Source: Utricularia gibba (Eukaryota; Streptophyta; Magnoliopsida; Lamiales; Lentibulariaceae). Taken from it: 64,000 nucleotides of DNA. A program made the translations under genes and the position numbers. Below, in pieces: positions 43,876-50,200 of this stretch (position 1 is its first letter; each line of letters opens with the position of its first letter). The DNA is taken from NCBI GenBank assembly GCA_002189035.1, contig NEEC01000004.1, forward strand, positions 4,464,001 through 4,528,000, in the 5' to 3' direction. Under the pieces are notes generated by a model. It was not told where the DNA came from. It searched no databases and saw only the letters and a list, made by a program, of their open reading frames with translations.

Positions 43876-46800
43876 TCCATGATGCTCTTTTTTTTTTTTT
43901 TCTTTTTGAATCCTTCAAGATACAGGAATTGGTTACACACAAGATGATGATGTATCAATTGATCAGATAGCTGAAAACATACTGCTTTATATCTGTGCTT
44001 TTTGGGACATAACTTGTTCCTTTCACTCGGTTCCTGCCAGTAGTAGGAGCATGAGCAGGCGCCATTCCATATATGAGTGATGAGAGCGAACACCAGCTCG
44101 ATTCACGCGCTGTGTCTCAGGAGTGGAGCCTCCTCCTCCCCTTCTTCCAAATCGAACATGGCATCCATAGCCTTTCATGGATGCCAGCTTTACAGTTCAC
44201 TGATCTTTCAGGTATATCTCTCTTCCACATGCCTGGACAAGCACGCCTAAACTAGGCTCACCTCGTTGAGATCCACAGATGCCTTCTGCATTAGGCGGAA
44301 CAACCTTAAGACCGCCATGGATGAGCAGCAGCGCTTCCATCAAAACCAGAGGTTGCTATGCTCATAGGCAGAGAGCATCGAGTTCCATGTGGCCAAATGC
44401 AGATCCTTGATTTGATCAAAGAACCACCTTACAATCTATCCTCAGTGCAGAACTCCGGGGAACCTAAAATAAGCCACAACGTTAAACCAGCAAAAAGCAA
44501 GCTACAAGTGGGAAATCATCGCATGATGTAATAGGATTTCAGCCAACTTCATGGTGAAAAATCGCAGTATCATTGGCGAATTTGGCCAAGAAATACATCG
44601 AACGATTAACTGGGTATGGGCTACCAATGAAGAAAAACGCGATCTTGAAAAAGTGAGCAGACGAAGAAACATGTACCTTGAGAACCCAGGAAAAAAAAAC
44701 TTCAATCGAGCATCCCAGATTAGATTCCATACCTCCCCCAACCGGACAAAAGGAACCATCTATATGAACTAGTTGCCTCGATTACAGCCGGCGATCCTCA
44801 GAGGGAATTCTCTAATCCTCGGCCTCAGCCCCAAAGCTGAACTGATTCGCGCCACCGGAGAGAAAGAAAATACCCCTCAATTGGGCAAAACGAAACTACA
44901 GCTCAAGATTGTTTGTGGCGGACCGGAACTGAGAGGACCCAAGTGCTGGAAAACCGCATTACCGGCCCATCTCTTCTGGTACACATTCGGGTCCCCGGTG
45001 GCGCCCAGTTCAAGAGTGAGGAATCTCGGTGGAGGGAAAAAGAAAAAAGGAGGGAGCAAGATACAGTAGTAGTAGGGGTGGGTATACGTTTCGTCCCTTG
45101 TATGGCCGGCTGATGCCGCAGACCGCCTGCGATGTTGGACTACGATGTCTCGAGAGACCAAGCAACCGGACGTGACAACACTAGCAGCACAAGCTCATTC
45201 TTCTCAGGGTTCACACCTCCGTCGTCTATGCCTTGTCCCCCGTAATCGCCATCTGGGCCCCCAATCCTCCAACCACCCAAATCTTCCTCAAAAACAAAAC
45301 AATACAAACACACAACACAAAGATGAAGAGAGGATACCACACGATTTATTCACTTTATATAGTTTAATTTTTAATTATTTTATTGTAAAAATAAAAATGA
45401 TTTGTTTTATAAATTATTGAATTTCTTAATTTTATATTTCAAGAAATTAATTAAAAATTATATTATTCATTTTTATATGATGTAAAATATATATTTATAT
45501 CATAAAATTAAATTTTGTAATATAATTTTATATTAACATATAGAATAATCTTACAATATTAAAATTGACTCTAATCCAGAAATATATATATATATTGAAA
45601 TTAAAAACACCACATAGAGAGAGAAATCCACGTTTTAGCTTATATTTCACCTATATTTTCGAATGAATGATGTTTTATAACTTTAAAAAAAGACTGTAAT
45701 ATGATACAAAATATACTATAATAATATTTAAATGATAATTTACATAATGCATTCAACCTCTAACACTTAGAAACCTTTGAAATGAAAAATTTGATAAGAA
45801 ATTATAAGAAAAGGGAAGAAAAAATAGAATTATTGAAAAACAAACCATTATAATAAAAATGAAAGTAAAATTCATTTTAATACAATAATGAGAATTTATA
45901 CAAAACTTATAATGTATGAAAAAAATGTATTAATTCGATTTTGTGGCAGTAAAATAAGAAGAAATGTAAAATACAAAATAGGCCTCGGAGAGCTTCTTCA
46001 CTGCAGGCCATAAATAGGAGTCGGTTGCATGTCACTTTTGCGGCACGTGACCGATCAGATCCTTCCTCACCACAAACTAACTGGGGACTCCCGCACCCAA
46101 TCAATTCCCATCTCTTTATTAAATTTTATTTTAAATCAATTTTAAAATTTATCATACGCGTGTATGAGAAATAACGAGATTAAATTCAACCATTTACGCA
46201 TTTTAAAACCTTAATTTATTTTAAATACTAATTTAATCTATTTATTTCCATGCCAATTTCCACGTCCGGTGTGGTCCACGGTAGGTACTTTGTGGACGCG
46301 GGAGTATCAAGTCCACTTGGTCTTCCATAACACAAAAGAAAAGTAAAAAGGTATTTTATTTATTTCTTTAATAATTTGGTTTCCCCAACACGGATGTGAT
46401 TCCTGACAAATCTAACGGCCATAAACGCTCTGGGTTGGGCTTACTGCACCGGCGACATACTATACATTTGACTTGGCGGCGCTGTCCACCGGAGGTGGGG
46501 CCGTCTGTGAAAAAGCAGCAAAAAAAAAGGTGACTTCGATGGAATCGGGCGGCTTCCTCAAATCTGCAAAATCGATCAATTCACGATTTTGAATCCACGT
46601 TTTGGTTTTCCGGTGTGGGACTAACCCTAATGGGGGAAACTGGCTTCCAGGCCGGCCGCCGGTGGCCAGGATTGGGGGCTTGCCGGGGACTCGCGGTGCA
46701 CAATGTGTATGAATTCTATCGGCTAGTACGGAAATCTGTGAGCTGCTAGAGATGAAGAAGGAGAGACAGAGAACAAAAAGGAAGGATTTTTATTATAAAA

Positions 46801-47005
46801 TATGAAAGAAAGATAGCAGTGCAAGAAACCCGAAGTGGGTTTCATCTATGGAACATGTCCCGACAGCACAATGGAAAGCAGAACATATCCATAGAAAAAA
46901 GAAAGGAAAAAGATTTTGCTATTCAAGTTTCCCGGCTGAGGAAGGATTAAAAAATTAGGGTTTTCAGTTTGTGTGTTTTGGTTTTTATTCAGACAAGAAG
47001 AATGA
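43876..47005. other. Gene-poor region between ARL5 and MIR167
   Basis: 43876-44300 includes the ARL5 3' UTR. 44300-45350 has mixed composition with short frames on both strands, none recognised. 45340-46260 is A+T-rich. 46260-46760 is G+C-richer, with no product I recognise. 46700-47005 may be the 3' part of the miR167 primary transcript on the minus strand. Confidence 0.4.
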
Positions 47006-47076
47006 GATGAAGCTACCACATGATCTGATCTTTCCACAGCAGGAGGAGGAGAGTTTAGATCATGCTGGCAGCTTCA
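47006..47076 (-). ncRNA. MIR167: MIR167 precursor hairpin
   Basis: On the minus strand, 47076-47056 reads TGAAGCTGCC followed by AGCATGATCTA, identical to mature miR167a/b. The opposite arm, 47026-47006, reads AGATCATGTGGTAGCTTCAT plus C and pairs with it through one bulged G (position 12) and one G-U pair, leaving a two-base 3' overhang as expected for DCL1 duplexes. The loop is 29 bases. miR167 guides cleavage of auxin response factor ARF6 and ARF8 mRNAs, controlling flower maturation and adventitious rooting. A pyrimidine-rich tract (minus strand, 47105-47165) and a TATTTATA motif at 47199-47206 lie upstream and could be the core promoter. The locus has no protein-coding potential. Confidence 0.93.
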
Positions 47077-47198
47077 TCAGATGCTCTTGCAAGATAAACC
47101 CGCAGAATAAAAATCCAATCTTTAGAGGGGGGAGGAGAAGAAGGGGAAGAAGAAAGGAGAAAAAGGGGGTGCTCAGAATTGTGTGGGAGAGGATGGGA

Positions 47199-47206
47199 TA
47201 TAAATA
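47199..47206. promoter_or_regulatory. TATA-like motif upstream of MIR167
   Basis: The motif reads TATAAATA on the plus strand and TATTTATA on the minus strand. For the minus-strand miR167 transcript it would give a start near 47170, within a pyrimidine-rich patch and about 95 bases upstream of the mature sequence. On the plus strand it is a better TATA box but has no known gene downstream. The assignment is inference. Confidence 0.35.
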
Positions 47207-50200
47207 GGGGATTCCAGAGGAAGAGGTTTCGAAAGTAGAGAGTGGTTTTAGTGAATAAAAGGTAAGATATAAGTGAAGCAAAAGCAAGCACGAGAGCAAA
47301 TACACACAAAGAAAAGAGAAAAAAAAAAAAAAAAGAAGACGAAGAAGAAGAAGAATCGAAAGTCATCAAGGTTCCACTGGTTCTCAGTGGTCCCAATCCT
47401 CAATTCATTTTCAAAATTGAAAATAGCCTCCTACTCCATCACTAAGATTTTCCCTCTTACCAATCCCCCAATAACATTAAACACTTACCCATATTCCATT
47501 TTTCCTTTTTCTTTTTCCCCTTAGTACAGGGACACCGTGTCCTAAAGTATCCACCCCTTTTGGGACACCCCTCTCTCGACCCTAATCATGTGTCCAAAGA
47601 CAGCGAACCCACATCAGACCAACCAACCATACTACAGAATTCGGGGCTCAGACGTATGTATCTCAGTGGTGAGACTTGCTATATCAGTAAGCAATGGTAT
47701 TAATCTACATGAATCATTATCTGATATATGGTTATGGTGGTTGTGCTACATGACAAAGTCGTACATTTCATTTGTGGCAATGAGGATGACAGCACTTAGG
47801 AGACTAAAAAAAGGCCCCCTGAGAGACTAAAAAGCTTAGAGAATGGGCATATTCCGTGACTAAAAACGATTGATTTGTTCGGCACGGCTCATGCATCCAC
47901 TCCACTGCGCAAGGGGGCATCCGTCATCCACCTTTTGGTCTCCAGAACACCCTAGTGGTATACAACAGCACTTCTTCAGTTGGCGTGCGCACTGCGCCAG
48001 TTGTTAGAAAAAGAGATTCTGTCTCACCTTGCAAAAACAATAGCTTATTTATTCAACATCTCTTGTTTTTCTGTAAGATTCATGGAACTTGTTCACTGTG
48101 TTGAGACACTTGTCTGGTTATCAGGTTCAGCACAGTGTCCCGACGAGGAATCCCACCCTGAGAAGATGGTTTATTATGAATAGAGATGGAGGTGAGGGGA
48201 TGATGAGGGAATCCATGAAGGGGTTTTGTCGTATTGAAAGGAATAGAATCTGTTAGGTGTGCAGTTCAAATGTCATCCCTCTCTCGTTTCTTTCCAGTTG
48301 TATGCATCAAGCGAGCCAGCTGGGAGAGTTACAAATCGATTCCCGTTTACCTATATGCATTAAAAGAAAGTGACCTGTGATGGATTTTTTTTAATCATAA
48401 TTTCACCCCCTCCAGCTTCTGGTCTCTCGAAATTATTAGCAGAATACCGATGGCAATGCCTACGTTTGCAGATCTGATCTGCATTCAATTCTTCCTCTGA
48501 AACGAAAACCCTTGTTCCCCCTATCCCCGATTGGACGCCTGATTCCGTGATTAGGTGTGTGTCAAAAACCACATTATGGGGAGCTTCTGCTAATCATTTC
48601 ACCACCTCTGATGCGAGTGTCTCTCACGTTTAATCCAATACTCTACTGAAATTGAATCCAGAAAACACCCCAAGTTCTCAATTCTAAATATTAGACAAAC
48701 AGAGCTTCCATTTCTAAACTTTCGAAGTAGAAGCAAACTTGAGGGTTGATTTTTTTTCATGCTGGTTAAATTCGATTTCCAACGAGACAACCGTGAATGA
48801 AAGAATCAGGGGCAAGAGAGAGAGAGGGAGGGAAGGAGTTAATGTGGCTGGCGCGGGCGGCGGGTCGCCGGGGATCTGCTGATCTGACCGGCGACGCCGA
48901 CAGCTTTTGTCCGGAGAACAAGAGTAGATTTGCATTCAGAAATCCACATGTTATTTCTTATTTAACGCCCTCCCTCCTTCCTAACCCTAAATTCATTACA
49001 CATAAATACCCGCATTTAATCCAATCAACGGAAGCTGTCCCCACTCAACTCGACTATTAAGATTTCGATTCTCATTTATTGCGCAATTAAATAAATTGTA
49101 TATTTATTAAAAAATAGAAAAAAGGAATCAATTAAACTCATTGCATTTTGCATGTAGACACAATGAATCTACTTTATAGCGTTTTAAAATCAGGTTCAAA
49201 TTATTCTCCCATTTATGTATGCCTCTAGGTTCAATTTATTTCAAAAATATTATATAAAAAAAAATAATTATCTAATTTAATATTTCTAATTTTCTTAAAA
49301 AATATTGAATGAAATCTTAAAAAAGGAATAGGAACTAACCCATTATTTTAACCTATTTTTAGTTTTTTTAAAAGTAAAAAATAAAAAGTATAAATTTTTT
49401 ATAAAATTCAAAATAAAATTGTGGGTATTCTTCAAAATCATTTTTTTATATGAAATCCACACAATTAAAAATGTATCTAAAAAGATCAAAAGTAACCTAT
49501 TTTTGCTTTTAAACACTATCTAGTATAAATGGATGACAAAAAATTTACAAAAAGCCAATCCTTATTTTCTATCCCACACAAAAATTATATAAAAATATGT
49601 TTTTTTCTTTTTTGAAAGATCCTAATTTTAATTTTTAAAAGTAAAAAATATTTGGAATTGGAGTTGGGGTTGGATGAAGCAAAAGGAGGGCAGAACTAGA
49701 GATGACAGTCACATAAATATGTATAAATATTAAAGAAATGGGGGACTCAAGGTGGTCCATAAATCCTTATTGTGATGGCTACAGGGTGACAGCAGAAGGG
49801 GCTGCCCCAAGGGCTACAATCTTTGTATTGAACATAGGCTGGTCCTCATCCCACTCCTCTTCACACAAAATCAAATCAAGATTGGTCAATATCTTATTTT
49901 ATCTCATACATTCACTCCAAAATTTTTAATTCAGAATGATCCATTTTTTCACACATCATCAAAGATGACAAGATTTCTAATACATTCCAGAATCACACAA
50001 AGATTAATCCAACAGGTTAGGTTTCATTTGGATAGCCACCCCCATGGCTCATTGCAGTTTGATGAGGTAGCTAGCAGCATGCAGCATCTGCTCTTGATGA
50101 TTCTTTCATTTGGGAAGATAGAAACCCCATTGGGTGGTTCGGTTCATATTAGGGTTTATGGAGGAGGAAGAAGGCAACCTGTGTTAGGGTTGACAGAGGA

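Follow-up and report, generated by a model that had tools for sequence, protein, structure and literature searches.

A short-loop MIR167 locus on the minus strand of a gene-poor interval in Utricularia gibba and its collinear duplicate

The MIR167 hairpin and its relatives in the genome

The window, a 64,000-nucleotide stretch of the Utricularia gibba genome, contains a miR167-bearing foldback between flanking ORFs that match the ARF-family GTPase, chlorophyll a/b-binding-like and acireductone dioxygenase families (Pfam). None of the ORFs tested between ~44.1 and 52.9 kb returned a Pfam match, in agreement with the ~9 kb of gene-poor surroundings described in the original prediction. The hairpin comprises the following features.

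46980-47100, minus strand: extended foldback with a lower stem (GCAAGAG / CTTCTTG) beneath the duplex; fold z = -6.29; conserved in the sister locus
47056-47076, minus strand: mature miR167 (miR167a/b type), 5′ arm, TGAAGCTGCCAGCATGATCTA; exact match, same in the sister copy at C4:433547
47026-47055, minus strand: upper stem and short terminal loop, 30 nt; from the fold; 3/30 positions differ from the sister copy
47006-47025, minus strand: predicted miR167* (3′ arm), GATCATGTGGTAGCTTCATC; from the fold and duplex; identical to a peach 20-mer (PMC3405489)

Read on the minus strand, positions 47076-47056 are identical to miR167a/b at 21/21 bases, and the opposite arm supplies a 20-nt star at 47025-47006. 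Folding of 46980-47100 (minus) yielded -46.3 kcal/mol against -24.6 +/- 3.45 for shuffled sequences, an energy that none of 200 shuffles matched, with the stem extending across 47006-47076. The mature/star duplex (21 nt + 20 nt; -28.7 kcal/mol) contains a single bulged nucleotide (G12 of the mature strand) and a single G:U pair and has, in silico, 2-nt 3′ overhangs at both ends; were the star 21 nt long, the bulge would reduce one overhang to 1 nt. The architecture is that expected of a plant MIRNA foldback: the miRNA occupies the 5′ arm, the loop is below 300 nt (30 nt separate the two arms), and large asymmetric bulges are absent from the duplex, whose sole bulge is 1 nt. The exact 21-mer, the two-base-overhang duplex with a single bulge and the stem across this interval had all been predicted beforehand, and each was recovered, the overhangs with the 20-nt star.

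The nearest sequenced star comes from peach locus 6_30, a miR167 locus from which a 20-mer identical to the star predicted here was obtained as miR167*, the 20-nt form outnumbering the 21-nt one (PMC3405489). The peach and Utricularia loci have in common the first 20 mature bases, the star and the conserved ARF site. The mature sequence, however, continues as ...GATCTGA in peach and ...GATCTAA in the window, and the star follows CTA in the former and TCA in the latter, so the two precursors differ. In a literature text search with the exact loop, the longer precursor and the sister-copy star, the peach star was the sole match.

A search of the genome (100,091,633 bases in 516 contigs) retrieved eight places matching miR167 with at most three mismatches, of which five (the window locus, L001, L003, L004 and L005) resemble MIR167 in both sequence and fold. 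The exact 21-mer occurs only at the window locus and at one other copy, C4:433547-433567 (L001), hereafter the sister copy. L003 possesses a long loop and a miRNA ending in G, and L004 and L005 have short loops. L005 (C402:792034-792054) has one base substituted within the miRNA (TGAAGCTGCCAGCTTGATCTT) yet folds well, at -56.1 kcal/mol, and is possibly a diverging copy of L004. The remaining three-mismatch matches (L006-L008) lack a MIR167 fold and were set aside. A U. gibba small-RNA study reports 71 miRNA loci in 17 families (PMC8333044).

Other stretches of the region fold with similar absolute energy, as would be anticipated if the hairpin were an inverted repeat in which one arm resembled miR167 by coincidence. 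Such an origin is vanishingly improbable and was rejected: a given 21-mer is expected by chance ~5e-5 times in 100 Mb, the hairpin is conserved in the sister copy, and its fold is well separated from those of shuffled sequences (z = -6.29).

Strand assignment and ARF targets

Fold energy by itself does not decide the strand, as the 71-nt core gives -34.9 on the plus strand and -32.3 on the minus strand. An Rfam scan of the entire window at the gathering score returned no matches. When the locus was scored against RF00640 (MIR167), whose gathering cut-off is 100 bits, it reached 35.6 bits on the miRNA strand and 60.6 bits on the opposite strand, both below the cut-off. The four short-loop loci (L001, L002, L004 and L005) all follow this pattern, with 57-61 bits antisense, 31-36 bits on the miRNA strand and none reaching 100, so the scores tell more about the model than about the window locus. 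The 3′ arm of the printed RF00640 consensus is GauCauGcuGGCaGcuuCa, the reverse complement of miR167; given this consensus and the same score pattern at three other short-loop loci, the model appears to have been built on the antisense strand.

The slightly better fold of the plus strand and its higher RF00640 score would favor a plus-strand transcript as the functional hairpin, the minus-strand reading being its antisense. We regard this as highly improbable and rejected it, because its product would be in the sense of ARF mRNAs rather than their complement, the peach reads carry the minus-strand sense on both arms (PMC3405489), and the RF00640 consensus itself includes the miR167 reverse complement, seemingly placing the model on the wrong strand. 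The minus strand is assigned as functional because both arms match known sequenced small RNAs and only this strand is complementary to ARF mRNAs. The call thus relies on complementarity to the targets and on the identity of both arms to a known miRNA and its star, and the original prediction of a minus-strand MIR167 agrees with the sequence, duplex geometry, sister copy, peach star read and ARF sites.

miR167 tunes auxin-response genes of the ARF6/ARF8 type, and its conserved target site encodes RSGWQLVF. The ARF site AGATCAGGCTGGCAGCTTGT occurs four times in the genome as an exact copy, in each case with same-strand ARF_AD domain exons ~1.6-2.3 kb away, and translates as RSGWQLVFVDREND(V/L)LLLGDDP. 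From this translated signature, we take the four site-bearing genes to be of the ARF6/ARF8 type; the same genome offers miR167 a complementary site in four ARF genes, with mismatches at miRNA positions 1, 2, 14 and 21 only. A further, two-mismatch match to the target site (L013) lies outside an ARF reading frame and was set aside.

The duplicated block

A 10-kb segment surrounding the C4 copy (L014) is collinear with the window over an interval that starts at the 43-kb GTPase gene, includes MIR167 and extends to the genes at 53-55 kb, as expected of a pair that would have arisen by segmental or whole-genome duplication. The precursor thus has a homologous locus in a collinear block, and alignment of the two copies delineated several conserved segments.

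46449-46504, no strand assigned: non-coding block downstream of the hairpin, 85.7%
46980-47291, minus strand: block around MIR167 comprising the hairpin and proximal upstream sequence, 77.6% to the sister (blastn)
47367-47415: conserved non-coding block holding GTGGTCCC
47387-47394, plus strand: TCP-type motif GTGGTCCC, with GGACCA and GGTCCC cores, inside the preceding block; cores tested in Arabidopsis (PMC3610633)
48256-48386, no strand assigned: non-coding block 1.2 kb upstream of MIR167, 85.5% to the sister
49710-49855, no strand assigned: non-coding block, 73.5%, containing two GGACCA cores that align between the copies; 2.7 kb upstream of MIR167

Both copies carry an identical mature sequence (21/21) on the same arm, a short loop, collinear neighbors and the shared non-coding blocks. 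They differ at 3/30 loop positions (27/30 identical) and 1/20 star positions (19/20 identical), in TATTTGTG replacing the window's TATTTATA upstream, and in a TATATAT at -243 that is particular to the sister. The single star difference, a T in the window star and an A in the sister's GATCATGTGGAAGCTTCATC, produces a G:U pair in the window copy and an A/G mismatch in the sister, leaving the window copy better paired. This pairing bears on whether the window copy has instead decayed into a non-transcribed relic after genome duplication, its function being left to the sister. Because the sister encodes the same mature sequence, such a loss would be tolerable, but the intact mature and star arms, the better pairing and the conservation of non-coding blocks both upstream and downstream render decay quite improbable.

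On the sequence, fold, duplex geometry, sister copy and four ARF sites, we place at about 95% the probability that the window locus functions as a MIR167 gene, its short-loop precursor being transcribed from the minus strand and yielding a mature sequence of the miR167a/b type, that it is one of two duplication copies, and that it represses ARF6/ARF8-type mRNAs. According to established plant miRNA biology, the minus-strand transcript would fold back on itself and DICER-LIKE 1 (DCL1) would excise the 21/20-nt duplex; the 21-mer would then enter AGO1, which, once loaded, would repress ARF6/ARF8-type mRNAs at the conserved RSGWQLVF-encoding site. The gene is real and ordinary in kind, and what is new is one added locus and a testable regulatory lead. 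For annotation, it represents a deeply conserved miRNA gene that ORF-based annotation would overlook and that a default Rfam scan misses.

Each MIR167 copy lies 200-300 kb from an ARF gene (MIR167 at C413:4511056 with ARF at C413:4814740; MIR167 at C4:433547 with ARF at C4:224750). In both pairs the ARF carries a miR167 site, and the relative orientation matches. A single duplicated block probably carried both the miRNA and its target, although their linkage as such could be coincidental.

Upstream sequence and TCP-type motifs

The original prediction had drawn attention to TATTTATA and a pyrimidine-rich stretch upstream of the hairpin, and both are present. The start site deduced from them, ~95 bases from the mature strand, is unsupported, though not disproved. 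TATAWAW is perfect only on the strand opposite the miRNA (TATAAAT), the sense strand reading TATTTAT with one mismatch, and one-mismatch matches occur ~17 times per kb per strand in the window. The sister copy has TATTTGTG at the corresponding position, within an otherwise well-conserved alignment line, and its own TATATAT at -243 is perfect. A TATA-based start site was rejected as unsupported on these grounds. A pyrimidine-rich stretch of this type occurs in both copies; it might represent a leader or a core-promoter Y patch, but does not fix the start site. A perfect plant-type TATA element, TATAAATAGG, is located at 47199-47208 on the plus strand and is directed rightward, away from MIR167.

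The GGACCA core at 47388-47393 is located upstream of the mature miRNA, at a distance of 312 nt. When either of two TCP motifs (GGTCCC and GGACCA cores) was mutated in the MIR167A promoter of Arabidopsis, the response to raised TCP levels was abolished, and TCP4 was bound at one of the two (PMC3610633). Both cores likewise stand upstream in the window, here within GTGGTCCC and conserved in the sister; binding and regulation were demonstrated in Arabidopsis, whereas the present observation is one of motif conservation. Across the two-copy alignment, 399 of 956 comparable 6-mer positions are conserved, and all three GGACCA occurrences (47388-47393, 49753-49758 and 49840-49845) are among them. 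The other 6-mers conserved at least three times derive mostly from the hairpin or simple GA-rich sequence. Each 6-mer class has on average ~0.19 conserved copies, so that a motif specified beforehand would seldom reach three; the first GGACCA site, however, was spotted ahead of the count, so the conserved triplet is no more than suggestive.

The miR319-TCP-MIR167-ARF circuit of Arabidopsis flowers might be built into the MIR167 pair through conserved upstream TCP sites (~0.3, 2.7 and 2.8 kb) kept in both duplicates of this compact carnivorous-plant genome, with the non-coding space around MIR167 resisting shrinkage because of them, a tentative proposal that we consider unlikely as a whole. From the duplicate pair and its shared non-coding blocks one can ask, on a small comparative scale, which control elements of MIR167 are retained after genome duplication. 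The block at 49.7-49.9 kb may be a control element of MIR167 or of another neighbor. At least six exact miR319-type sequences are present in the genome.
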